Positions 3,423 to 46,050 of a stretch of DNA of 64,000 nt are shown in pieces. The position numbers and the translations under genes were made by a program. The notes beneath the pieces are model-generated. The model saw only the letters and a list, made by a program, of their open reading frames with translations, made no database searches and was not told where the DNA came from. Numbering within the stretch: the first letter of the stretch is position 1; each line of letters begins with the position of its first letter. This DNA is from Weissella halotolerans DSM 20190 (GTDB lineage: Bacteria > Bacillota > Bacilli > Lactobacillales > Lactobacillaceae), in NCBI RefSeq assembly GCF_000420365.1, contig NZ_ATUU01000001.1, forward strand, positions 434,001-498,000. The letters are read 5' to 3'.

Positions 3423-4601
3423 CTAGTTATCAGCTTGTTCACTAAAGTGGTAATCACTTGGTAATTGGAACTCTTGCCGCACTAGTTGTAGGGCTGCATT
3501 GAAGACCTGATCCATGTCGTAATACCGATATTGCCCTAAGCGACCCCCAAAAACAACCTGGTCCTTTAAGGCTGCTGCGAATTTAGCATATTGCCGATAA
3601 AGCTGCGTGTTTTCCTGATCATTAATTGGATAGTAAGCCTCGCGATCAGTCGTCCAGGCCTGTGGATACTCACGAGTCACGACAGAAACTGCCGGATCAG
3701 ATAGGCCATCAAAATGTTTCCATTCCATCACCCGCGTATAGGGCGTTTCCCGATCCGTATAATTAATCACTGCATTCCCCTGATAGTTATCTACCGCATG
3801 AACTTCCTTTTCAAAGCGTAAGGAACGGTAAGCTAGCTGACCAGCTTGATAATCAAAGAACTGGTCAATCATCCCTGTATAAATGATACGTGGGAATTCA
3901 GCTAAATAGGTTTCCTTGTCCGCCATGAAATCTGTGTTTACCTGGACATCAATCAAGGGGTGCTCTAGGAGTTGGTCAAAAATTTGGGTATAGCCACCAA
4001 CGGGTACCCCCTGATAACGGTGATTGAAATAATTATTATCAAAAATAAAGCGAACCGGTAGTCGCTTGATGATAAAGGCAGGTAGCTCCGTTGCATCGCG
4101 CCCCCATTGCTTTTCCGTATAACCCTTAATGAGCTTTTGGTATATATCCGTTCCAATTAAGGAAATGGCTTGTTCTTCTAAATTACGTGGTTGATAGTTT
4201 TCATCATCACCTAAAAAAGCAGCCCGTTGTTCCTTGATTTTAGCCTGCGCTTCAGCAGGCGTCTTGGTTCCCCACATCTCATAGAACGTATTCATATTGA
4301 AAGGAAGATTATAAAGTTCCCCCTTATAATTAGCAATCACTTGATTCTGAAAATTATTAAAATCGGCAAACTGTTGAATGTAGTGCCAGATTTCTTGGTT
4401 ATCTGTATGGAAAATATGGGCCCCATAATCGTGCACTGTAATCCCATGCTCCACATGCGTATACAAATTACCCGCTACATGCGGACGCTTTTCAATAACT
4501 AAGATTCGTTTCCCTAATTTGGCAGCTTCATGGGCAAAGACTGCCCCATAAGGACCAGCCCCAACAACTAAATAATCATAGTTCTTTGTATTTAATTTCA
4601 C
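3423..4601 (-). CDS. glf: UDP-galactopyranose mutase
   Basis: 392 aa. This FAD enzyme interconverts UDP-galactopyranose and UDP-galactofuranose for cell-surface glycans. An N-terminal dinucleotide-binding loop (DYLVVGAGPYGAVFAHEAA) is followed by the family motif around NLYTHVEHGITVHDYGAHIFHT in two parts, and by the C-terminal GRLGQYRYYDMDQV segment with conserved Arg and Tyr residues. The start codon is GTG with GGAAGGGG upstream. It stands alone rather than inside an exopolysaccharide cluster, so its glycan partner enzymes must lie outside this window. Confidence 0.95.
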   Translation of the reverse strand: MKLNTKNYDYLVVGAGPYGAVFAHEAAKLGKRILVIEKRPHVAGNLYTHVEHGITVHDYGAHIFHTDNQEIWHYIQQFADFNNFQNQVIANYKGELYNLPFNMNTFYEMWGTKTPAEAQAKIKEQRAAFLGDDENYQPRNLEEQAISLIGTDIYQKLIKGYTEKQWGRDATELPAFIIKRLPVRFIFDNNYFNHRYQGVPVGGYTQIFDQLLEHPLIDVQVNTDFMADKETYLAEFPRIIYTGMIDQFFDYQAGQLAYRSLRFEKEVHAVDNYQGNAVINYTDRETPYTRVMEWKHFDGLSDPAVSVVTREYPQAWTTDREAYYPINDQENTQLYRQYAKFAAALKDQVVFGGRLGQYRYYDMDQVFNAALQLVRQEFQLPSDYHFSEQADN

Positions 4602-4694
4602 TGTTTTCCCCTTCCATCACCAAGACAGCCCTAGGCGAGCATGGCCTTGGTATGTTTGTCCCAGCTATGGTTTTATAAATTTCTACATGTTACT

Positions 4695-4700
4695 AGTATA
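4695..4700 (-). promoter_or_regulatory. Probable extended -10 of glf
   Basis: Minus strand TGGTATACT lies about 95 nt upstream of the glf GTG start. The rest of the 4602-4777 gap shows nothing recognisable apart from a weak GTTAG/CTAAC dyad without a T-run. Confidence 0.4.
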
Positions 4701-4777
4701 CCAGACTAAGAGCAAACTTATCTCGCCCAGGTCTCACTACTACCCTTACCCGTCACTCTAGCTTGTTAGTGCTAACG

Positions 4778-5234
4778 TTATCTTTCATGAACTTTTTCCT
4801 CAGCAGCCGTCCACCTCATCAGATATTCTCTTTCTCCAGTTAACTGATCAACCCCTTCCTTTACCTTCACAAAACCTGCATGTTGGTAAAAGAGTAGCGC
4901 TTTTTTATTTTTAAGATAAACATCCAAGTATATAGTTGGTTGATCCTGTTTAACCTTCTGCAGTAAGGCCGTGCCGATGCCTTGCTGTCGATAACCGGAT
5001 TTAACAAACAGCCCTGCTATGTAATCACCCGTCAGTCCTAAAAAGCCCACGAGCTTGTTCGTCTTCAAAATAACCGTATAGGCGAGCTTGAGGCAGACTT
5101 TTACGAACCAGCTCAGTCTGTTCTTCCCAATAGTGCGGATTTATAAAGGCATGACGCTCTAAATTACCAGCCAACCAAATAGCCATAACGTCTGCCATTA
5201 AGGTCTCATTAGTTGAATCAATTAATTTAATCAT
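4778..5234 (-). pseudogene. GNAT N-acetyltransferase, frameshifted
   Basis: Two overlapping frames together make one GNAT domain of about 150 residues. The first frame (from 5234) ends in ARLYGYFEDEQ and then runs out of register. The second carries LVGFLGLTGDYIAGLFV, the acetyl-CoA loop RQQGIGTALL, and YQHAGF near the end. Removing one base near 5054 (the extra G after GAACAA on the minus strand) would join them as EDEQLVGFLGL. The acetyl acceptor is unknown. It could be a real pseudogene or a one-base sequence error. Confidence 0.85.
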
Positions 5235-5310
5235 ATAACCTCCTTAAAAAATTAAACAAATTATTGCCTTACTCTGTTTTCAAAATTGACCAGTAAGCAT
5301 TAACAACCAC

Positions 5311-5351
5311 AAAAAAGACCTACCACTTGGTAAACCACCAAGCAATAGGCC
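5311..5351 (-). terminator. Terminator of niaP
   Basis: Fully paired 15-bp stem (with G-U pairs) around a 5-nt loop, followed on the minus strand by six T, between the niaP stop and the acetyltransferase remnant. Confidence 0.9.
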
Positions 5352-5379
5352 TTTCATTTACTCGTACTCGCTTGAAAAG

Positions 5380-6588
5380 TTAATCGAGTTCAACTCCCTT
5401 TGTTTCTCTACCAAGCACCAAAATGGTCAAAACGGCGACCATAATAGCTAGACTAAAGACGGCAAAGATGGCCTCAAAAGACAGGTGTTTACTTAGAAAA
5501 ACGCCAATCGCTAAGGGCCCCAGGATACCGCCTAAGCGTCCAAACCCTTCTGCCAAGCCGTTGGCAGTACCGCGAATCGCGGTGGGATAAAGCTCTGGCG
5601 TGTAAGCGTACAAGACACCCCAAGCGCCAAGATTAAAAAATGATAACAACATGCCAGAAAGTAAGACCATCGGCACAGTCGTGGCAAAGCCAAAGGCAAA
5701 CGCACTAACAGCCGTACCCAACAAGAAGGTCGCCAAGACCGATTTACGTCCCCACTTTTCAACTAGCCAGGCCGCCGTAAAATAACCTGGTAACTGGGCC
5801 ACGGTCATCACAACGACATACCCAAAACTATGTACCATGCTAAAGCCCTTGCCAACTAAGACATTTGGCAGCCAAAGAAAAATACCATAGTAAGAAAACA
5901 TAATCATGAACCACACCAGCCATAGCATAATCGTTGAACGGCGATATGGCTTCTCAAAAAGCTTCCTAATTCGCTGCCAAGGACTTAATGTAGGCCTTGC
6001 ACTATTTTTGGTGACGGCCTTTTGATCAGTTGGTAAATGGCGTCGCAAAATGAAAACATAAAAAGCACTTAGAGAGGCAATTACTAAGGTTATGCGCCAG
6101 CCATAAGCGGGAATCACAAAGTAAGCCAATAAACTGGCTAGCAACCAACCAACAGCCCAAAAACTCTCCAATAAGACAATCACCCGACCCCGAATGTGCT
6201 GTGGAACATGTTCAGCTACTAAGGTTGACGCTACCGGTAATTCCCCTCCTAGACCCAATCCTACAAAAAAGCGCAACACCATAAAGACAAGATAACCACT
6301 TGCAAGGGCTGACAATCCCGTGGCCACTGAAAAGGTTAACAAGGTGACCATCAACATTAACTTACGACCCTTAGTATCAGCTAAAAGCCCAAAGATAATC
6401 GCTCCAACAGCCAATCCAATTGAATTAACCGAGCCCAACCAACCAACTTGCACTTGTGACAGTCCCCAGTCCTTTTGGATTGCTACCAAAATAAATGATA
6501 GCAAGCCAACATCCATTGCATCAAATAACCAAGCACAGCCCGTCACTGACAGTAACTTCCCAATCCCTTTTTCCATTCTAAACTCCAT
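5380..6588 (-). CDS. niaP: MFS transporter, probable niacin transporter NiaP
   Basis: 402 aa with about 12 hydrophobic spans. The loop-2/3 MFS signature GLLADTKGRKLML and the helix-4 signature FVGLGLGGELPVA are present. The N-terminal DAMDVGLLSF and overall layout match the B. subtilis YceI/NiaP group, which imports nicotinate/nicotinamide. The assignment is strengthened by the gene directly upstream, a NiaR repressor, and by a palindromic operator between them. Two starts are possible: the outer ATG at 6588, or an inner one at 6576 (MEKGIG), which has GGAG six bases before it. The substrate is inferred from context. Confidence 0.85.
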   Translation of the reverse strand: MEFRMEKGIGKLLSVTGCAWLFDAMDVGLLSFILVAIQKDWGLSQVQVGWLGSVNSIGLAVGAIIFGLLADTKGRKLMLMVTLLTFSVATGLSALASGYLVFMVLRFFVGLGLGGELPVASTLVAEHVPQHIRGRVIVLLESFWAVGWLLASLLAYFVIPAYGWRITLVIASLSAFYVFILRRHLPTDQKAVTKNSARPTLSPWQRIRKLFEKPYRRSTIMLWLVWFMIMFSYYGIFLWLPNVLVGKGFSMVHSFGYVVVMTVAQLPGYFTAAWLVEKWGRKSVLATFLLGTAVSAFAFGFATTVPMVLLSGMLLSFFNLGAWGVLYAYTPELYPTAIRGTANGLAEGFGRLGGILGPLAIGVFLSKHLSFEAIFAVFSLAIMVAVLTILVLGRETKGVELD

Positions 6589-6602
6589 CCCATCCTTTTA
6601 AT

Positions 6603-6626
6603 TCAGGGGTGTCAAGACACCCCTGA
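6603..6626 (-). promoter_or_regulatory. Palindromic operator upstream of niaP (candidate NiaR site)
   Basis: Perfect inverted repeat of 11-bp arms TCAGGGGTGTC and GACACCCCTGA separated by two bases. It lies just downstream of the niaP -10 and ends 15 nt before the start codon, a roadblock position. There is no T-run, so it is not a terminator. The core GTGTCTTGACAC resembles remembered NiaR motifs of Firmicutes. Confidence 0.8.
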
Positions 6627-6637
6627 CGAATGGCACC

Positions 6638-6667
6638 AGCATAGCAAAAGAAGCCCTATGTTGTCAA
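6638..6667 (-). promoter_or_regulatory. niaP promoter
   Basis: TTGACA at 6662-6667 and TATGCT at 6638-6643, spacer 18 nt, with an extended TGC before the -10. It lies between the niaR stop and the palindrome, so niaP has its own promoter. Confidence 0.8.
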
Positions 6668-7177
6668 CTAACCCTGATACAAGATGTCCAAGTCGGCTAA
6701 CTGCTTTTGCGCGGCTTTAAACTGTGTTTCATGATCAAAACCAACTGTATGTAAATGTAAGCCATTGGTCAGGGTCGACAACAATTGCCCCTGCCGTTGG
6801 TGATAGTTCGCTAAAAAGGCATCCACATCAGCCCGCGTATAAAGTGCTAACTCACCCTTTAAAAGACCATATAGGGGATGGTCAACTTGCACATCTTGAA
6901 CTGATACGCCTGCATCAATTAAGGATAATAGCTCTGTTTCAACTTCGTCTGCTTGATGGTGGACGACAATCACTCGCCTATGTCTACGCATAGTCTGATA
7001 ACGATAGCCTTGTGCTGTTGATTCAATCTGCTCACCACTGGCCCGTAACAGTGCCACATCCCCTACAATTGTTTGCCGGGAAACATGTAAGGTTTTAGCA
7101 AGTTGGTTGGCACTAATGGTCTGACTTGCTGCTTGAATTTGTCGCTTAACTGCTAATTGTCGCTCTCGTCCTAACAT
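6668..7177 (-). CDS. niaR: NiaR, niacin-responsive transcriptional repressor
   Basis: 169 aa. The N-terminal helix-turn-helix (ISANQLAKTLHVSRQTIVGDV, about residues 20-41) is of the HTH_11/DeoR type. The rest is a 3H domain: histidines in VIVVHHQADE, VQVDHPLYG and NGLHLHTVG form the family's ligand/metal pocket. NiaR represses niacin uptake and NAD genes when niacin is plentiful. It is transcribed just ahead of the transporter it is expected to control. Its own upstream region holds a TCTTGACA half-site at 7196-7203, compatible with autoregulation. Confidence 0.9.
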   Translation of the reverse strand: MLGRERQLAVKRQIQAASQTISANQLAKTLHVSRQTIVGDVALLRASGEQIESTAQGYRYQTMRRHRRVIVVHHQADEVETELLSLIDAGVSVQDVQVDHPLYGLLKGELALYTRADVDAFLANYHQRQGQLLSTLTNGLHLHTVGFDHETQFKAAQKQLADLDILYQG

Positions 7178-7235
7178 TGATTACGCCCCCAATTTTCTTG
7201 ACAATGTCGTCTATCCTTGTCCATTAGACCTTCCT

Positions 7236-7264
7236 ATTATATGAGTCAGTGGCTACTAGAACAA
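7236..7264 (-). promoter_or_regulatory. niaR promoter
   Basis: TTGTTC at 7259-7264 and TATAAT at 7236-7241 with a 17-nt spacer. A TCTTGACA half-site (plus strand, 7196-7203) lies downstream, in the 5' untranslated region. Confidence 0.65.
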
Positions 7265-7454
7265 GGTAAGTCACAACTGGTTGTCCTGAGCATTTAGTAT
7301 TTATGGTGACTGACCCTTAATTACTGACTTAAAATTAGTAAAAACACTCGACAAGTAACCATCTTTGCGCGACAATCAATACAGAGGCACCTATTATTTC
7401 TGCCTGATTACATTATCATTGACGTATCATCCACCTAAAGGAGGATTCACAACC

Positions 7455-20743: not shown

Positions 20744-23209
20744 TCAATCATCAAGGATTAATTGAGCCCCAATCGCAAAGCGGCCGTTATCAAAGGAACC
20801 GTGAATATGCATATGTTCAATAAATTCATCATCGACATACTTGAGCGTGCCCCGATGATGTAACCACTGCCATTGCTTTAGGCCCAGTAAATGTGCTTGA
20901 TCCTGCTGAGTTTCTTGACCAACCATGTAGCGAATTGCCATGCGCATCCACGCATAGCCACTCACTTTCTCCAGGAGAGCTACCTGCACAAAGGGCATTG
21001 GTCTTAGTTGAACATCTAGATCCGTTCCCACCAACTGACCAGGACTTAACTGACTTTGATAAAGTCCCGGTTGTCGAAAATCTCCCTCTGGCAAATTAAG
21101 ACTGACTTCTGTTATCTTCTTCGGTTGACTGACAGTAACCTGCTCATTTGACTGCTCGCTTATTGCCACTGGATACAAGGCTTGTCCATCACAGAAGTAA
21201 TTAATTAAAGAAGTTGCCCCATCTGCTGCCATAGTAGATGGCAAATATTTTTCATGTGGAATCACTTGCACGTTCAAACCGACAGCCCTTAGACTTTGGA
21301 TAAGCTTAATTCGATTACCAGGCACAAAAACCTGACTAGGTTGCTCAATTTCTACCACATTCATCACATCTGAAATTTCGATTGGTTCAAAATAGCGCTT
21401 ATCCCCTAATTGTGGGACAAATAAGAGGTCATGGGGATTATTATTCACCAACACCGTTTGCCAGCCTAATGCCTTTAATTCGTCTGCCACTGTTGCTTCA
21501 ACATAAGAAGCCGCTGCTCCATCGCCCAATCGAAATGCTCCACTACCAATAATCAACGCCGTGTGATCGCCTAAGCGTTCACTCTCATTTTCATCTTCAA
21601 AAGTTGAATAAAATTGAGCAACAGCTTCTGGAAACTCACCTGCCGAAGGTTCAAATGCTTTATAAGTAGGCAATACATTATTATCCCAACGGTAACGGCG
21701 AACACTATCGTAAACTGTATTCCATAGGCGCGCGACTAAGCCGTCAGACAGCCCATAATATTTTGCTGCCTTAAGCGTTTCAATATCCCAAGGATGCTCA
21801 CGAACTGACTGTTCCAACGTCATAATTTGTTCTATTTTATAAAAATAAAAGGGATCAATCTTAGTTAATTCAGCCAATTCATCAACTGTATAGCCCCGCC
21901 GAATCGCTTCCATAAGCACAAAAATACGATTGTCACGGGGATGAATTAATTGTTCAATCAATTCACTGTCAGTGAGTGCATTCATGACGGTCGGCGAAAA
22001 ACTAACATTATTAAAATGAGCTGCTCGAATCGCTTTTTCAAGGGCTTCTTCAACACTACGCCCCACTCCAATGGTCGCACCAACTGATTTTTGGACTGTA
22101 TCCAACCGATTAGCCGTTAGAATGTCCGCCTTTTCAAGTTCACGAAAGGCAAAAACCGGAAAGCGAATCGCAATATGATCCATTGTCGGTTCCAAAAGTG
22201 CTGTATGATTTGCATAAATTCCCGGTAAGGTCACTTTATCCAATCTTTCCCCTAACATCACCCCGGTCATAACTGGTACTAGAGGATAGCCTGTTGCGGC
22301 TGTGATCAAGGCTGCTTTTCGGTCGTAATAGGGTACAATCCGCGTAATGACATAACTTTCATCCTCGGGTCGAACAGCAAACCGAACCTCTAACAAGCCC
22401 TCAACCTTAAACCCTCGTGCTACCTTAAAGGCCGCCGTCCGCAAGGTTTCCGTTATCGGATCCGATAGCGTTTGAATGGGTGTAATGGCGATTGAATCTG
22501 CTGAATGGACACCAACTGGATCTAAATCTTCCACCCCGCCAATCATTAATGTCGTATCGCGACAATCACGCATCACCACTAAGGCAATTTCACGATATCC
22601 ACGAATACTTTTATCGACATTGACTTGGTGCGTTAAGGATTGGCGCAGAGCATCCTGGGCAATTTGATCTAAATCGTCAGCATCATCAGCCTGCAAACGC
22701 ACAGCTGGACCCGGCGTAGCAATCGGCCGTAAAACAACTGGAAAGTCCAGTTCCCTAGCCGCATCAAAAACCTCACCGGCATTGGTTGCTAGCCGAGTTT
22801 GCACTGCTGGTAAGTTTAGCTGTTCTAATCGTTCCTGCAAGTACTTTGTATTTTGGGCCGCCTGCATAGCTGGATAAGAGGTTCCAAATAGTTTAGGGGC
22901 CTGATCCCCTAGGCTTTGAACCACATTTGCTGTTAAATTAATAGCAGTCATACTGCCCACGGTCGGTACAATAGCAGTAATATTGTAACTTTCTAACGTT
23001 GCCAGTACATTGTCCAAGGTTAAATCAGCTGTAATGACGTCGATATCTGGACGACTAGCCGTAAAACTATAGGGATTATTGTCAATCAAGAAAACATCAT
23101 AATGACGGTCTAGCAAAGCCGAAGCCATTTGATAGGCCGCTACATCACCTTCTGTTTCACGACCAAACCCATTTGGCCCACTCCCAATAATGAGCACACG
23201 CTCTTTCAT
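20744..23209 (-). CDS. CarB-like protein, probably catalytically dead carbamoyl-phosphate synthase large subunit
   Basis: 821 aa, against about 1060 for real CarB. Order of parts: a CarB pre-ATP-grasp (1-115), the first ATP-grasp (115-400), the oligomerisation region (about 400-545, with IDPFYFYKIEQIM), a second pre-ATP-grasp domain (548-655), then about 165 residues with no recognisable ATP-grasp or allosteric domain. In the first site the glycine loop is replaced by IATPGPAVRL (163-172). The ligand Gln is Arg276. The EMNPR metal motif reads RIVPY (290-294). Carbamoyl-phosphate synthesis looks impossible. The frame is nonetheless intact and overlaps carA by 4 nt. A structural or regulatory role is inference. 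Confidence 0.85.
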   Translation of the reverse strand: MKERVLIIGSGPNGFGRETEGDVAAYQMASALLDRHYDVFLIDNNPYSFTASRPDIDVITADLTLDNVLATLESYNITAIVPTVGSMTAINLTANVVQSLGDQAPKLFGTSYPAMQAAQNTKYLQERLEQLNLPAVQTRLATNAGEVFDAARELDFPVVLRPIATPGPAVRLQADDADDLDQIAQDALRQSLTHQVNVDKSIRGYREIALVVMRDCRDTTLMIGGVEDLDPVGVHSADSIAITPIQTLSDPITETLRTAAFKVARGFKVEGLLEVRFAVRPEDESYVITRIVPYYDRKAALITAATGYPLVPVMTGVMLGERLDKVTLPGIYANHTALLEPTMDHIAIRFPVFAFRELEKADILTANRLDTVQKSVGATIGVGRSVEEALEKAIRAAHFNNVSFSPTVMNALTDSELIEQLIHPRDNRIFVLMEAIRRGYTVDELAELTKIDPFYFYKIEQIMTLEQSVREHPWDIETLKAAKYYGLSDGLVARLWNTVYDSVRRYRWDNNVLPTYKAFEPSAGEFPEAVAQFYSTFEDENESERLGDHTALIIGSGAFRLGDGAAASYVEATVADELKALGWQTVLVNNNPHDLLFVPQLGDKRYFEPIEISDVMNVVEIEQPSQVFVPGNRIKLIQSLRAVGLNVQVIPHEKYLPSTMAADGATSLINYFCDGQALYPVAISEQSNEQVTVSQPKKITEVSLNLPEGDFRQPGLYQSQLSPGQLVGTDLDVQLRPMPFVQVALLEKVSGYAWMRMAIRYMVGQETQQDQAHLLGLKQWQWLHHRGTLKYVDDEFIEHMHIHGSFDNGRFAIGAQLILDD

Positions 23210-24291
23210 GACAGATCTCCTTTCCGTCGATCTTCGACTAATTCCATAAAGTCTTCAAACGGCTGACTAGCTTCAATGGGACCCGGTGATGCATCAGGGA
23301 AAAATTGCACGCTAAAAGCTGGATAATCACGGTGACGAATACCCTGAATCGCCCCATCGGTTAAATCAACATAGGTCACAATCATATTTTTATCTTTTAA
23401 ACTTGTTGCATCAATCTGGTAGCCCTGCGCTTGCGTAGCATAAAGGATTTGATTAGTAATTTGCTCACGAATCGGGTGATTCATACCATGGTGCTCAGTT
23501 TGCATTGGTACTAATTGAATACCGTTTGCTAAGGCAAATAATTCATGTCCTAAGCCAATACCAAATAATGGCACCTGCGTTTGAAAGTGTTTAATGAGTT
23601 CCAAAATATCGGCTGGTACATCATTCGGATTCCCTGGGCCCGAAGATAAAATAATTCCATCTGGATCTAAATTAGCTAACTCATCAATGGAGGTACTAAA
23701 TGGCAGTACGGTTACATTCGCATCATAGTCATTAAGTTTTCGCAAGATACCGTTTTTTAACCCAAAATCAAGCACCACCACATTAGCACCACGGCCGGGA
23801 TTCACATAGGCGCGGGGGGTTGAAGTCTGTTGAATTTGTTGATTTGAAAGAACGAGGGCCTGTAATTGGTCAAAGGCATGCTCATCAGGAACATCAACAA
23901 TGGACGCTTTTTGAGTGCCTGTTTCCCGCAAGTGCCGCGTCAGTGCTCGTGTATCTATTTGTGCAATTCCCGGTACATTGTATCGTTTTAGAAATTCATG
24001 TAAGCTCATTGACTTTAAACGATTAGTTGAAACCTCAGCCAACGAACGGACAACAACCCCTTTCACCATCGGACCAATTGCTTCATCTGCCCGGTGATTA
24101 ATGCCAGCTACCCCAATTGTTGGCATAGTAAAGACCACAATTTGGTTATGATAAATGGGATTCGTCATAATCTCTTGATAACCAGTCATTGCAGTATGAA
24201 AAAAGATTTCACCAAAGGTTGTTGCTGGGGCGCCAAAGGCCTCACCTGGATAGATGGACCCATCTTGTAATATTAAATATCGCCGTGTCAT
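23206..24291 (-). CDS. CarA-like protein, probably dead carbamoyl-phosphate synthase small subunit
   Basis: 361 aa, normal length. The N-terminal CarA domain is well kept (EAFGAPATTFGEIFFHTAMT, IDTRALTRHLRETGTQ). The C-terminal class I glutamine amidotransferase domain has lost its whole triad. The nucleophile motif GICLGHQ reads GIGLGHE (Gly246). HPEASPGP reads FPDASPGP (Phe331, Asp333). Glutamine hydrolysis is therefore not expected. The fold around the site (SSGPGNPNDV, HHGMNHP) is preserved, so this is not random decay. Follows pyrR and precedes the equally degenerate carB-like gene. Confidence 0.88.
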   Translation of the reverse strand: MTRRYLILQDGSIYPGEAFGAPATTFGEIFFHTAMTGYQEIMTNPIYHNQIVVFTMPTIGVAGINHRADEAIGPMVKGVVVRSLAEVSTNRLKSMSLHEFLKRYNVPGIAQIDTRALTRHLRETGTQKASIVDVPDEHAFDQLQALVLSNQQIQQTSTPRAYVNPGRGANVVVLDFGLKNGILRKLNDYDANVTVLPFSTSIDELANLDPDGIILSSGPGNPNDVPADILELIKHFQTQVPLFGIGLGHELFALANGIQLVPMQTEHHGMNHPIREQITNQILYATQAQGYQIDATSLKDKNMIVTYVDLTDGAIQGIRHRDYPAFSVQFFPDASPGPIEASQPFEDFMELVEDRRKGDLS

Positions 24292-24347: not shown

Positions 24348-24975
<628 letters not shown>

Positions 24976-24992: not shown

Positions 24993-25934
24993 TTAGTTTA
25001 TCATGTTTTCACCAGACTCGTTAGTCTTCTCCGCATACGGAGTCAACTGAGCCAACATCGTTTTAAACCCCGCAGGCAAAGGGGCAGAAAAACGCAAATC
25101 CTCACCGGTTGTCGGCTGGGTCAAGCCCAGTGTAGCTGCATGTAAGTACTGCCCCTGGCCCGGTAGAGTCTTTTTTGGTCCATATAAGGGATCACCAGCT
25201 ACGGGATGCTTAATATAGGCCATATGAGCTCTAATTTGGTGGGTCCGCCCAGTCTCTAAGGTTACCCTGAGTAATGTATAACCGACAAAACGTTTTACAA
25301 CTTCAAAGTGAGTTACAGCTGGCCGACCTTCAGCAACGACCGCCTGCTTTTTACGATCCATGGGTGATCGGCCAAGTGGAGCATCAATTGTTCCACGTTC
25401 CTCACTAAATTCACCGTGAACCAGGGCATAATATTGTCGTAAATTTTTCTTCGCCTTGAGTTGGGCACTCAGTACCTCATGTGCATGATCATTCTTGGCG
25501 ACCATCAACAGACCAGATGTATCTTTATCGATACGATGCACAATACCTGGTCGAATAATACCATTAATTGACGACAATTTTGTATGATACAATAAGGCAT
25601 TTACTAGTGTCCCATCAGGGTGCCCAGCTGCCGGATGAACTACCATGCCCTGCGGTTTGTTAACTACAATCACATCATCATCTTCATATACAATCTCGAT
25701 TGGTAAATTTTGTGGTCTAGCTGCCAAAGGTTCTGCTTTTGGTTCTACCAATGTTATGCGGTCGGCTGCCTTAACACTATACTTTGGCTTTTTTTTCTGC
25801 CCATTAACCAGTACATGACCATCTGTAATCCACTTGGTCAATTGGGCCCGACTAAATTCTGGAAAGGCCGTTCGTAAAACTTTATCCAAGCGCCCCTGCT
25901 CTGTTGTAATGACAACCTCTTTACTATCCATCAT
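24993..25934 (-). CDS. rluD: RluA/RluD-family 23S rRNA pseudouridine synthase
   Basis: 313 aa. N-terminal S4 RNA-binding domain (RLDKVLRTAFPEFSRAQLTKWITDGHVLVNG) and catalytic domain with the active aspartate in RIDKDTSGLLMVAKN; GRTHQIRAHMAYIKHPVAGDPLYG closes the signature. The product modifies uridines of 23S rRNA; the exact site is inferred by family. It overlaps the ebsA-like stop. Confidence 0.93.
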   Translation of the reverse strand: MMDSKEVVITTEQGRLDKVLRTAFPEFSRAQLTKWITDGHVLVNGQKKKPKYSVKAADRITLVEPKAEPLAARPQNLPIEIVYEDDDVIVVNKPQGMVVHPAAGHPDGTLVNALLYHTKLSSINGIIRPGIVHRIDKDTSGLLMVAKNDHAHEVLSAQLKAKKNLRQYYALVHGEFSEERGTIDAPLGRSPMDRKKQAVVAEGRPAVTHFEVVKRFVGYTLLRVTLETGRTHQIRAHMAYIKHPVAGDPLYGPKKTLPGQGQYLHAATLGLTQPTTGEDLRFSAPLPAGFKTMLAQLTPYAEKTNESGENMIN

Positions 25935-26476: not shown

Positions 26477-26878
26477 ATGCTTACTACCATTCATAGCGAC
26501 GCAGCCAGTAAGGGTAATCCTGGGCCCAGCACGGCTGGTGTCACGATTGTTCGGGCTGGTCACCAATACCAGTACCAACACGCCCTGGGTAATCTTAGTA
26601 ATCATGAAGCTGAATTTGCAGCTGCTCAATTTGCCTTTGAGCAAGCTGATCGTCTCTGTCAGCCAGATGACACCATCATGTTTTATAGTGACGCCAATCT
26701 TGTCATTGCAAGCTTAGAAAAGCGCTATGCTAAACATTTCCCTAAGCAATTAACTTCATTATTAGCCCATATCGACCGCTATCAGCTAGTGATTGTTCAC
26801 TGGATTCCAGAAAAAGAAAACAAAGGTGCCCACCACCTAGCTCAGCAAGCGCTTCATCGCTTATTAGCTTCTTCTTGA
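26477..26878 (+). CDS. RNase HI family protein
   Basis: 133 aa. Cleaves RNA in RNA:DNA hybrids if active. The acidic catalytic residues appear as Asp8 (HSDAASKGNPGPS), Glu44 or Glu46 (NHEAEFAA) and Asp72 (FYSDANLVI). At the fourth position, where the family has NxxAD, this protein reads NKGAHH, placing His119 at the aspartate. E. coli RNase HI with that Asp changed to His is known to stay active, so function is plausible. GGAG precedes the start. Its last 15 bases overlap the 3' end of the nhaC-like gene on the other strand. Confidence 0.88.
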   Translation: MLTTIHSDAASKGNPGPSTAGVTIVRAGHQYQYQHALGNLSNHEAEFAAAQFAFEQADRLCQPDDTIMFYSDANLVIASLEKRYAKHFPKQLTSLLAHIDRYQLVIVHWIPEKENKGAHHLAQQALHRLLASS

Positions 26879-28270
26879 AGGTGTAGCCTGTTTTAAGCCA
26901 ATCCCCGTCCAAGCAGCTAATAAAGAAAAAAGAGGTGATAGCCAGGCAAAGAAAACAAAGGGCATAAAGTGCCAAACTGAAACACCTAATGTTTGGGCCG
27001 CAAAACTACCGGCTACTCCCCAAGGAACAAGATAATTAAATACTGTTCCTGAATCTTCCAAAGTCCGACTTAAGGCTAACCGACTGAGTTTGAGCCGATC
27101 AAAATCAGCCTTCCAAAGTTGACCTGGAATAATCGTGGCTAAATATTGTTCCCCAATCATAAAATTAGCAACTATTCCAGAAATAATGGCCCCGGTTACG
27201 ACCCCAGCTTGGCTGTGTAGCCGTTTAGCCAGCGGTAGCATCACTGCCTGCAGAATGCCTTGTTCCGTCAGGAGCCCACCCAAAGCTAACGCTAACATGA
27301 TTGTAATAACAGTTGGCATCATCGCCAGCATACCACCTCGATCTAACAAAGCCGCCACAACGGGTTGTGAACTATAACTCTGGTAACCATTTAATAATAA
27401 CTCATTTAACGCTGGTAACCCCTTTTGCGTCAAAAAGGCTGCTGCGGACACTACGACATTCACTAATAAAGTCGGAATTGCTGGAATCCGACGCCAAGCC
27501 ATCAGGACTAATAAGCCTAACGGTAGCACTGCCCACCAACTTGGTTTAAATAAAGCCATCAATTGTCTTAACTCAGCTGGATGGGCAATGCCCTGATGTC
27601 CTAAACCAAGCCAGGTAAAAAGCACTAAGCTGACCGCTAAAGCCGGTATGGTCGTCCACATCATATTTTTAATGTGAGCGAATAAATCAGTCTGTGCAAT
27701 CGAAGCCGCTAAGTTGGTAGAGTCTGACAAAGGAGAACTTTTATCACCAAAGATTGCCCCGGAAATGATCGCCCCGGCTAAAATATCAGGTGCGATACCT
27801 AACGTCGTTCCAATGCCCATCAAAACCGTCCCAATCGTCGCAATCGTCGTAAAAGCAGACCCAATCATTGAGCCTACGAGCGCCATTACTAAGAGGGCAC
27901 TAGGCAAAAACCACTGTTCATTAGCCAATTTAAAGCCCAGCACTAACATTGTCGGAATTACACCTGTCGCTAACCATAAAGCGATTAGCATTCCGATTAG
28001 TAAGAACAAAAACAAAGGGGCTAATCCTGTCTGCAGGCCTGCTAACAGATTTGCTTGTAGTTGGCTAAAAGAATGTCCCAGCAAGCGGCCAACAGCCATG
28101 ACCAAACTAATACCGGCAATCAGTGGAATATAAGGTGGTAAATGATAACCAATAATACTGATGGTAAAAATGAGGACTAGGGCTGACATGATTAACATGG
28201 CTTGCCAAAAGGCGGGCCTTTTTGTCAGCTGGGGATTATCTTTTAAATGGGATTGATTATTGTTAGCCAT
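26864..28270 (-). CDS. NhaC-family antiporter under T-box control, possible tyrosine-related transporter
   Basis: 468 aa with about 11-12 hydrophobic spans, typical of the NhaC ion-transporter family (LLIGMLIALWLATGVIPTML; GAIISGAIFGDKSSPLSDSTNLAA). Family members are named as Na+/H+ antiporters. This gene follows a T-box leader whose specifier reads UAU, and tyrosine T-boxes on NhaC homologs have been reported in lactobacilli, where the transporter is thought to move tyrosine. A 19-codon open frame lies between leader and start. The substrate here is inference. Confidence 0.85.
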   Translation of the reverse strand: MANNNQSHLKDNPQLTKRPAFWQAMLIMSALVLIFTISIIGYHLPPYIPLIAGISLVMAVGRLLGHSFSQLQANLLAGLQTGLAPLFLFLLIGMLIALWLATGVIPTMLVLGFKLANEQWFLPSALLVMALVGSMIGSAFTTIATIGTVLMGIGTTLGIAPDILAGAIISGAIFGDKSSPLSDSTNLAASIAQTDLFAHIKNMMWTTIPALAVSLVLFTWLGLGHQGIAHPAELRQLMALFKPSWWAVLPLGLLVLMAWRRIPAIPTLLVNVVVSAAAFLTQKGLPALNELLLNGYQSYSSQPVVAALLDRGGMLAMMPTVITIMLALALGGLLTEQGILQAVMLPLAKRLHSQAGVVTGAIISGIVANFMIGEQYLATIIPGQLWKADFDRLKLSRLALSRTLEDSGTVFNYLVPWGVAGSFAAQTLGVSVWHFMPFVFFAWLSPLFSLLAAWTGIGLKQATPSRRS

Positions 28271-28425: not shown

Positions 28426-28616
28426 GTCCCAGTTATACATATGTATAACTGGGACGAATTAGTTGCTATCCGCGGTACCACCCATTGTTTAGCACTCAAA
28501 AGAGAGTCCTACCCTTAGTGTTTTTCTGCTAATTTTAATATCAATAATTCATCACACAGGCCTGCCCCGTTTTCAGCAACCACGGTTTCTCTGACGTTGA
28601 GCCTGTATCACTACTA
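28426..28616 (-). ncRNA. T-box riboswitch, probably tRNA-Tyr responsive
   Basis: The T-box sequence TGGGTGGTACCGCG is at 28471-28484. It is followed by a 30-nt perfect hairpin terminator (28426-28455) with seven T. The distal stem I shows CAGAGAAACCG and GTGGTTGCTGAAAACGG. With the S-turn strands AGUA (5' side) and GAA (3' side) aligned as in glyQS leaders, the specifier falls on UAU at 28544-28546 (Tyr). T-box identity is certain; the codon is a register argument. Confidence 0.9.
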
Positions 28617-28622
28617 ACTGTC

Positions 28623-28651
28623 ATGATAGGTGGTCACTCACTAATTGTCAA
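28623..28651 (-). promoter_or_regulatory. Promoter of the T-box / nhaC-like unit
   Basis: TTGACA at 28646-28651 and TATCAT at 28623-28628 with a 17-nt spacer, immediately before stem I. The 28271-28664 gap is thus fully explained by promoter, T-box and short ORF. Confidence 0.8.
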
Positions 28652-45113: not shown

Positions 45114-45785
45114 TTAAACACCCACCTTCCCGTCAATCGCGGCCTTTATACTTTCAAAAAAAGGCCGACCAGCAGTACTACCCAATATGGTTTCAACTGC
45201 CCTTTCTGGATGGGGCATCATCCCCAATACATTACCTGCTTCATTCGTAATTCCAGCAATCTGGTGGGTCGACCCATTAACGTTAGTCTGGTAACGAAAG
45301 ACAATTTGGTTTGCTTGCTCCAGCTGGGTAACTAGCGTGTCATCTGCATAGTAACGCCCCTCAGCGTGAGCAATTGGGTAGTGTATCTGTGCTTGTTGAT
45401 ACGCCGTCGTAAAGGGGGTCGCTTTATTTTCGATTTGAATAGCCACCTCATCACATATGAACCCTGGTTGTTCATTTAGCATAAGTTGGCCAGGTAATAG
45501 ACCTGCTTCGGTTAAAATCTGAAAACCATTGCAAATGCCAACGACGATGCCACCCCTGGCTGCCAATGCCTTAACGGCCGCCATCACGGGTGAAAAACGG
45601 GCAATTGCACCAGCCCGTAAATAATCACCAAAGGAAAAACCCCCTGGTAAAAAGACTGCATCATACGCAACTAGTTCCTTAGCTTGGTCTGACACCAAAC
45701 TTGTTGACACACCAAATTGCTTTAAAGCTTTTTCTAAATCAAGGTCACAGTTTGATCCTGGAAACTGAATCACCGCTGCACGCAT
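45114..45785 (-). CDS. purQ: FGAM synthase glutaminase subunit
   Basis: 223 aa from [10 protein letters not shown], with AGGAGG upstream. Class I amidotransferase that feeds ammonia to PurL. Nucleophile Cys in [11 protein letters not shown] and the His/Glu of [10 protein letters not shown] are intact. This contrasts with the dead triad of the CarA-like protein in the same window. Confidence 0.95.
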
Positions 45786-45786
45786 G

Positions 45787-46050
45787 CTAACCCTCCTCTG
45801 GCACTGCCTGTAGGTCAAAATGATAGGTTTCTGTATTCTGGTTAATCAAAAGAGCCGCCGTTAAGCTTTTTACATCATCAACAGCCTGCTCTTCGTCAGC
45901 CGCCTCAAGGCGCACTTCAAAATATTTTCCCTGTACGACCTCTCTGACGTTTTGATACGCTAAGCGATGCAGAGCTGCCTTAATTACCTCCCCTTGGGGA
46001 TCAAGTACAGAGGGTTTATAACTAACATAAATATGAGCTAAATACTGCAT
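45787..46050 (-). CDS. purS: FGAM synthase subunit PurS
   Basis: 87 aa. Small bridging subunit of the PurLQS complex; YVSYKPSVLDPQGEVIKAALHR is typical. One base between its stop and purQ. Confidence 0.93.
   Translation of the reverse strand: MQYLAHIYVSYKPSVLDPQGEVIKAALHRLAYQNVREVVQGKYFEVRLEAADEEQAVDDVKSLTAALLINQNTETYHFDLQAVPEEG

Follow-up and report, generated by a model that had tools for sequence, protein, structure and literature searches.

The window analyzed here, a stretch of 64,000 nucleotides from Weissella halotolerans DSM 20190 (contig NZ_ATUU01000001.1, positions 434,001 to 498,000), carries on its minus strand the pyrimidine regulatory gene pyrR, followed by two overlapping genes that derive from the small (CarA) and large (CarB) subunits of carbamoyl-phosphate synthetase (CPSase) and are called here pseudo-CarA and pseudo-CarB. 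Catalytic residues are lost in both subunits, and the pair is held under strong purifying selection, is spread family-wide through the Lactobacillaceae, lies at the site where other families keep a pyrimidine (pyr) operon and is retained in genomes in which no intact CarA or CarB was found at the thresholds used.

Residue losses in both subunits

Pseudo-CarA (361 residues; 23206–24291, minus strand) was defined from its open reading frame (ORF), NCBIfam models and alignment to Escherichia coli CarA. An earlier note, made from the letters of the window alone, had described a CarA-like protein with an intact frame and all three residues of the glutaminase triad replaced. The frame is open over 361 residues, from 24291 down to 23206, and the product is a full-length CarA homologue, with 358.8 bits against TIGR01368 (cut-off 307.35) and 416.7 bits against NF009475 (cut-off 221). 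The nucleophile is lost, Gly246 (codon GGC, 23554–23556) aligning with Cys269 of E. coli CarA from the Protein Data Bank, and so is the histidine, Phe331 (codon 23299–23301) aligning with His353. The third replacement had to be dropped and, with it, a three-residue loss as originally worded: Asp333 aligns with Glu355, yet Asp stands at this position in all 31 intact CarA rows (those with Cys and His), and the intact CarA of the same genome (locus L113), 43% identical to pseudo-CarA, reads HPDAAPGP.

CarA rows with Gly at the nucleophile position, termed Gly-type, lack the His in 52 of 52 cases and carry an acidic third residue in 51 of 52. Seven positions mark the type in a set of 40 rows, three of them at former pocket positions: Ile46 replaces Ser47 (90% of rows), Gly246 replaces Cys269 (100%) and Glu250 replaces Gln273 (93%), where Ser47 and Gln273 are presumably glutamine contacts of the working enzyme. 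Position 268, another of the seven, was rejected as a sign of a dead site, given that active E. coli CarA also has His there. Judged from these residues, pseudo-CarA should lack glutaminase activity. Curated models would still name a Gly-type CarA as CPSase, as the two scores above illustrate. At the loci examined, its partner is likewise an altered CarB.

Pseudo-CarB (821 residues; 20744–23209, minus strand), delimited by domain search and alignment, overlaps pseudo-CarA by 4 bp. It retains the pre-ATP-grasp, first ATP-grasp and oligomerization domains, the last being the best conserved of its five segments. The Gly loop is gone, and R-I-V-P-Y at 299–303 replaces Glu299, Asn301 and Arg303, which together with the Gly loop we take to form the ATP/Mg site of CarB. 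Position 299 separates the two kinds cleanly: all 40 truncated pseudo-CarB rows carry a basic residue, Lys or Arg, and all 31 intact rows carry Glu. Little is left of the second half of the protein: the second ATP-grasp domain survives as remnants in the truncated forms, the window protein showing one CPSase_L_D2 stretch vs two in the intact CarB of L113, and the MGS domain found in that intact CarB gave no match in the window pseudo-CarB. The total score, 440.3 bits, lies far below the TIGR01369 cut-off of 1027. Because of the residue losses in both subunits, the pair should be unable to form carbamoyl phosphate, whatever the nitrogen source.

A further locus of the family, in genome G021 (L158, 2703–6957, minus strand), combines a Gly-type CarA with a full-length CarB whose first half has an intact Gly loop and EVNPR motif and whose carbamate site is altered; from its motifs, this pair is a possible bicarbonate-dependent ATPase intermediate.

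Spread, selection and origin of the pair

Within the genus of the window, Gly stands at the nucleophile position in all 26 genomes checked by residue, a set from which G500 and G501 were excluded (G501, 66% complete, has no CarA match). In the wider family, 52 of 85 CarA rows are Gly-type; some of these rows were chosen by hand, and two species, W. viridescens and L. rennini, are apparently represented twice. Across 40 Lactobacillaceae genera, each represented by one genome, a Gly-type CarA is present in 33; six have intact CarA only and the last, G033, is apparently L. rennini. A CarA-type match exists in 395 of 397 family genomes, residues having been checked at the loci fetched. Recurrence in 26 of 26 genus genomes rejects sequencing error or local decay as the source of the Gly. 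PurQ in the window (45117–45845), which the earlier note had cited against a general sequence-quality problem, retains GICNGFQ.

Selection was estimated as the ratio of nonsynonymous to synonymous substitution rates (dN/dS) by the Nei-Gojobori method, with our own script, in genus pairs with dS between 0.05 and 1.5, many of them near 1 or above. Median dN/dS is 0.030 for pseudo-CarA (25 pairs) vs 0.101 for intact CarA (38 pairs), the two pair sets being different. For pseudo-CarA the ratio lies between 0 and 0.043 in 20 of the 25 usable pairs and between 0.10 and 0.165 in five distant ones. Of the 22 pairs computable for both proteins, which are not independent of one another, 19 give pseudo-CarA the lower ratio. 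When G267, which has only a partial intact CarA, is left out, pseudo-CarA is lower in 15 and higher in 3 of 18 pairs. The N-terminal part of pseudo-CarB behaves alike, at 0.013–0.044 in 18 of 20 close pairs, with one pair at 0.076 and one not computable. Within the genus, selection thus holds pseudo-CarA about as tightly as the working enzyme, and relaxed selection is rejected by the low ratios.

The earlier note had read the gene as a pseudoenzyme that selection keeps for some other function, a proposal to be given up if close relatives kept a normal triad and dN/dS approached 1; Gly in every genus genome checked and a median of 0.030 support it. The low ratios show purifying selection, and the loss of activity is what the residues predict. 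That note had missed the altered CarB, pyrR and its leader, the changes at Ser47 and Gln273, the intact CarA elsewhere in the genome and the spread through the family.

In five genus genomes (G339, G086, G307, G357 and G203) neither a second CarA (E ≤ 1e-60) nor a second CarB (E ≤ 1e-30) was found. Each of them retains PyrR as well as the pair, and the single usable comparison between two of them gives a pseudo-CarA dN/dS of 0.022 at a dS of 1.27. No pyrB above cut-off is found in four of the five, G203 being the one that has it, and these four, without pyrB or intact CarA/CarB, should therefore be pyrimidine auxotrophs. Matches to the PyrR-site model occur in four of the five genomes, all below the Rfam cut-off, with none in G339, and the four sites looked at adjoin transporter-like genes. 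Among the 33 representatives with a Gly-type CarA, nine have no other CarA or CarB at the thresholds used (G009, G013, G015, G017, G024, G027, G028, G034 and G035), G009 lacking any CarB match (E ≤ 1e-30); a tenth on the script's list, G020, was not counted, having a partial second CarA match. Several of the genomes without intact subunits are draft assemblies. Metabolic models should not count the pair as a carbamoyl-phosphate supply; in the nine representatives and five genus genomes it is the only copy at the thresholds used.

The number of origins depends on the gene examined. The initial CarA tree was built without L184, L137 and L177 and had 89 rows, of which 31 were thinned out and six rows from other families added for the CarA test tree; with the trait columns removed, it needs four changes, and the approximately unbiased (AU) test rejects a single clade (p 0.008). 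The N-terminal CarB tree, from which 18 of the 64 CarA-tree rows were thinned, groups L. rennini with every Gly-type row that it contains (support 100/99), with long-branch warnings. The two trees thus disagree on a single vs a repeated loss of catalysis. A PyrR tree does not separate PyrRs linked to pseudo pairs from the others (six changes, long branches).

Three divergent loci were seen in the course of this survey. In Loigolactobacillus rennini (L007, 1189–5513, plus strand) CarA keeps its Cys, His and Asp are replaced by Leu and Asn, and both CarB sites are altered, by sequence another apparent route to a dead CPSase; its genes lie at contig ends, pyrP-carA-carB-rqcH at one and lspA-rluD-pyrR-pyrP at another (L007, L266). 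Locus L177 of G009 (3848–7358, minus strand), beside lspA-rluD and rqcH, holds a very divergent pyrR, a CarA-like gene (30% identity, GIGLGQE) and a third gene of 659 residues that is barely CarB-like. In the pyr operon of G029 (L267), carB is split into two ORFs (853 and 207 residues) beside an intact carA; G029 has no PyrR match and no Gly-type CarA.

The pyr-operon site, PyrR and the leader

The gene directly upstream of pseudo-CarA is pyrR (24348–24893, minus strand; likely true start at the Met at 24866), identified by NCBIfam (275.8 bits vs a cut-off of 218 for NF003548), by BLAST and by the motif DDVLYTGRT at residue 108, which we take to be the phosphoribosyl pyrophosphate (PRPP) motif. 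It is the only match at E ≤ 1e-20 in the 1.36-Mb genome, two weak ones following at E 3e-9 and 4e-5. The catalytic genes are elsewhere: L113 is an operon pyrB-pyrC-carA-carB-pyrF-pyrE in which no pyrR was seen, preceded by a PyrR site (RF00515, 56.6 bits vs a cut-off of 54), and a second match of 47.3 bits, below the cut-off, precedes a uracil-permease-like gene. With no other PyrR in the genome and none in the L113 operon, the window PyrR would then have to serve both sites.

Next upstream lies a gene for an RluA-family (RluD-type) pseudouridine synthase (24993–25934, minus strand; NCBIfam and BLAST), which plays no part in the mechanism considered below and serves as a marker of the pyr-operon site. 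Among 22 pseudo-pair loci that were drawn, rluD stands on the upstream side in all 22, lspA is in view in 18 and rqcH follows downstream in 17. Five genera (g12, g13, g25, g30 and g31) have at this same site an operon with intact CarA, lspA-rluD-pyrR-pyrP-pyrB-pyrC-carA-carB-...-pyrF-pyrE. So do five of six genomes from other families, in which an intact-CarA pyr operon lies beside rluD (four also with lspA in view); the sixth, G422, has an intact pyrR-BC-carAB-DFE operon with rluD not in view. G022 is intermediate, with pyrR-pyrP-pseudo-carA-carB(643)-pyrF-pyrE. At the pseudo-pair site the other pyr genes are gone, and pyrR stands directly upstream in 42 of 52 rows and one gene away, across pyrP, in five more. 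Given the operons with intact CarA beside rluD in five genera and in other families, and the G022 intermediate, the pair is most simply read as the ancestral pyrAA-pyrAB left at its original site, with the catalytic copy elsewhere.

As to gene names, lspA, the rluD-, uracil-permease- and rqcH-type genes and pyrB, C, D, E and F were named with NCBIfam on one reference each, other loci by BLAST to these references, and the genes beside PyrR sites from their N-termini. The pseudouridine synthases exceed the TIGR00005 cut-off and fall below that of the RluD equivalog, the permease reference exceeds the NCS2 superfamily cut-off and falls below the uracil-permease one, and the rqcH reference is below the cut-offs of both its models.

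Between the rluD-like gene and pyrR, the leader (minus strand) presents three elements in the order of transcription: a hairpin resembling the PyrR loop, GTCAA-TCCGTGAG-TTGAC (24958–24975), noted by comparison within the genus; a possible antiterminator obtained by folding (24918–24953, arms 24953–24945 and 24926–24918), which overlaps the 5' arm of the terminator; and an intrinsic terminator (24899–24930; −22.7 kcal/mol, z −7.9). Twelve genus leaders were inspected, and the PyrR loop was present in nine, the window and eight relatives, which were aligned; 11 of 16 predicted pairs show two-sided changes, including all four of the PyrR-loop stem. These changes lend partial support to a PyrR-type attenuator on the pseudo-CarAB operon.

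The Rfam model RF00515 gave no match in the window leader, so that the region 24899–24975 is a PyrR-attenuator-like leader common to nine genus genomes and missed by that model, which may therefore under-detect PyrR sites in the genus. Farther upstream, on the same strand, a T-box-like leader (28447–28633; 49.9 bits, gathering threshold 93, E 1.6e-8) precedes an ORF (26864–28270) that reads like a membrane transporter.

What the pair may do

We favor, at a probability of about 0.5, the reading that the two genes encode a non-catalytic module, derived from CPSase, that regulates pyrimidine genes together with PyrR. The pair would have descended from pyrAA-pyrAB of an ancestral pyr operon and been kept behind pyrR, the catalytic pyrBC-carAB-(D)FE operon lying elsewhere. 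Pseudo-CarA and pseudo-CarB would form a complex like that of CarA and CarB, this complex would sense a ligand and, made from the same transcript as PyrR, it would work with PyrR to set transcription of genes for pyrimidine synthesis and uptake. The complex, its ligand, its contact with PyrR and the loss of activity are all predicted from the genomic evidence.

A bolder version, which we regard as speculative and rather unlikely, has the pseudo-CPSase bind an inorganic-carbon or nucleotide ligand and thereby gate PyrR on RNA attenuators. Of the two PyrRs of Lactobacillus plantarum, PyrR2 is reported to respond to inorganic carbon (PMC3582564), and it corresponds to lp_1782 (PMC7911632). Genome G038, of genus g38, which is probably Lactiplantibacillus, has two PyrRs that are 64% identical, one heading a pyrR-BC-carAB-DFE operon and the other the pseudo pair. 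Bicarbonate is attractive as a ligand because PyrR2 responds to inorganic carbon and the second pyrR of G038 heads the pair. Two further observations fit: it is the bicarbonate half of CarB that is retained (of 51 pseudo-CarB rows, to which L177 contributes none, 50 keep Glu215 and 46 keep His243), and G021 has its bicarbonate-site motifs intact beside a dead carbamate site. The version is weakened by the loss of Arg303 in all 40 truncated pseudo-CarB rows (Tyr or Phe in 37), a residue kept in 31 of 31 intact rows. If it were true, PyrR2-dependent inorganic-carbon control in L. plantarum would have its missing sensor in the pair, and an ancient, non-catalytic role of CPSase would have survived at the old operon site after the catalytic one was lost there. 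The pair is also a specific candidate for the way in which PyrR2 perceives inorganic carbon, a mechanism on which nothing was found in the papers searched.

Several observations weigh against a regulatory partner of PyrR, or against parts of that reading. On the side of conservation, dN/dS of pseudo-CarA exceeds that of intact CarA in 3 of 22 pairs, all distant (for example G281–G252, 0.131 vs 0.107); over 190 pairs of 20 genomes, G267 being omitted for its partial intact CarA, pseudo-CarA is slightly the less conserved of the two, being the more similar protein in 63 of the pairs, with a mean difference of −1.1 points; and pseudo-CarB diverges faster, at 52–65% identity within the genus. In the leader, the window PyrR-loop hairpin folds no better than shuffled sequences (z 0.29), the antiterminator is barely better (z −1.62, 13 of 200 shuffles folding as well), and 3 of the 12 genus leaders (L114, L189 and L191), excluded from the alignment, have no PyrR-type leader. 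The PyrRs beside pseudo pairs share just four weakly distinctive positions. Nor is the association strict, since 5 of 52 pseudo rows (L124, L129, L148, L173 and L176) show no pyrR at the locus, the pseudo-pair genome G017 has no PyrR match, and PyrR occurs without the pair in six of the seven representatives lacking a Gly-type CarA. Finally, intact CarA is missing from 14 genomes, and three of these (G203, G028 and G035) have pyrB above cut-off, which implies some further source of carbamoyl phosphate there.

The rows without pyrR, in which the pair stays, and G017 speak at the same time for the main rival, a role independent of PyrR, in which the pair moonlights outside pyrimidine regulation and its pyrR neighborhood is an ancestral relic. 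We consider this possible and on the whole doubtful: G017 is 87% complete, pyrR is directly upstream of most pseudo pairs though the other pyr genes have gone from the site, and the PyrR-type leader before the operon in nine genus genomes suggests co-regulation by pyrimidines.

An accessory or decoy subunit, mixing with catalytic CarA and CarB to modulate CPSase, is improbable. The first-half CarB domains and the oligomerization domain are indeed kept, and 24 of the 33 pseudo-pair representatives have, or in G020 may have, another copy with which to mix, but in the five genus genomes and nine other representatives described above no such copy was found at the thresholds used, and dN/dS is 0.022 in the single usable comparison within the five. 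From this persistence of the pair in genomes without intact CarA or CarB, service to the intact enzyme is unlikely, and the proposal was rejected.

Still less probable is a residual or changed enzyme, either an ammonia-dependent CPSase like mitochondrial CPS1, in which the glutamine amidotransferase Cys is also replaced, or a bicarbonate-dependent ATPase. Bicarbonate phosphorylation could survive in G021, with its intact first-half motifs, and the pyrB genes of G203, G028 and G035, which have no intact CarA, would call for carbamoyl phosphate. However, the second-site (carbamate) motifs are altered in all eight full-length CarB rows tested (seven Gly-type and L. rennini), on which ground ammonia-dependent catalysis was rejected as unlikely; the truncated forms retain mere remnants of that domain, and the window CarB has lost both sites.

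Simple decay of a redundant duplicate, suggested by the shortened and divergent pseudo-CarB and by the vanished pyr genes, is scarcely credible against the low dN/dS of both genes, an open pseudo-CarA frame in every one of 26 genus genomes, and replacement residues that are themselves conserved (Ile46, Gly246 and Glu250 in pseudo-CarA; the basic residue at 299 in pseudo-CarB).

In the literature searched, whose scope did not take in the key PyrR2 paper, no account was found of the pair or of a function for the two genes behind pyrR2. Pseudoenzymes and CPSases are known kinds; what is new, within the reach of our search, is the variant in which a dead CPSase is retained next to PyrR across a family. 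Compared with CarA/PyrAA (TIGR01368), pseudo-CarA is homologous over its full length but lacks the Cys and His, its glutamine-pocket positions carrying other conserved residues. Pseudo-CarB shares with CarB/PyrAB (TIGR01369) the pre-ATP-grasp, first ATP-grasp and oligomerization domains but has neither the catalytic residues nor a second ATP-grasp or MGS match. Mitochondrial CPS1, which uses ammonia, likewise keeps a dead, Cys-less CarA-like glutaminase domain for a non-catalytic purpose; CPS1 keeps both synthetase sites, whereas the window pair has lost both. The viral vGAT proteins, relatives of PFAS that act in infected cells, are pseudo-glutamine-amidotransferases with a regulatory role, as proposed here, but have no relation to CPSase or PyrR. 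L. plantarum PyrR2 is comparable in genomic setting: in G038 one of two pyrR genes heads the pseudo pair, whereas the window locus carries the only PyrR of its genome.

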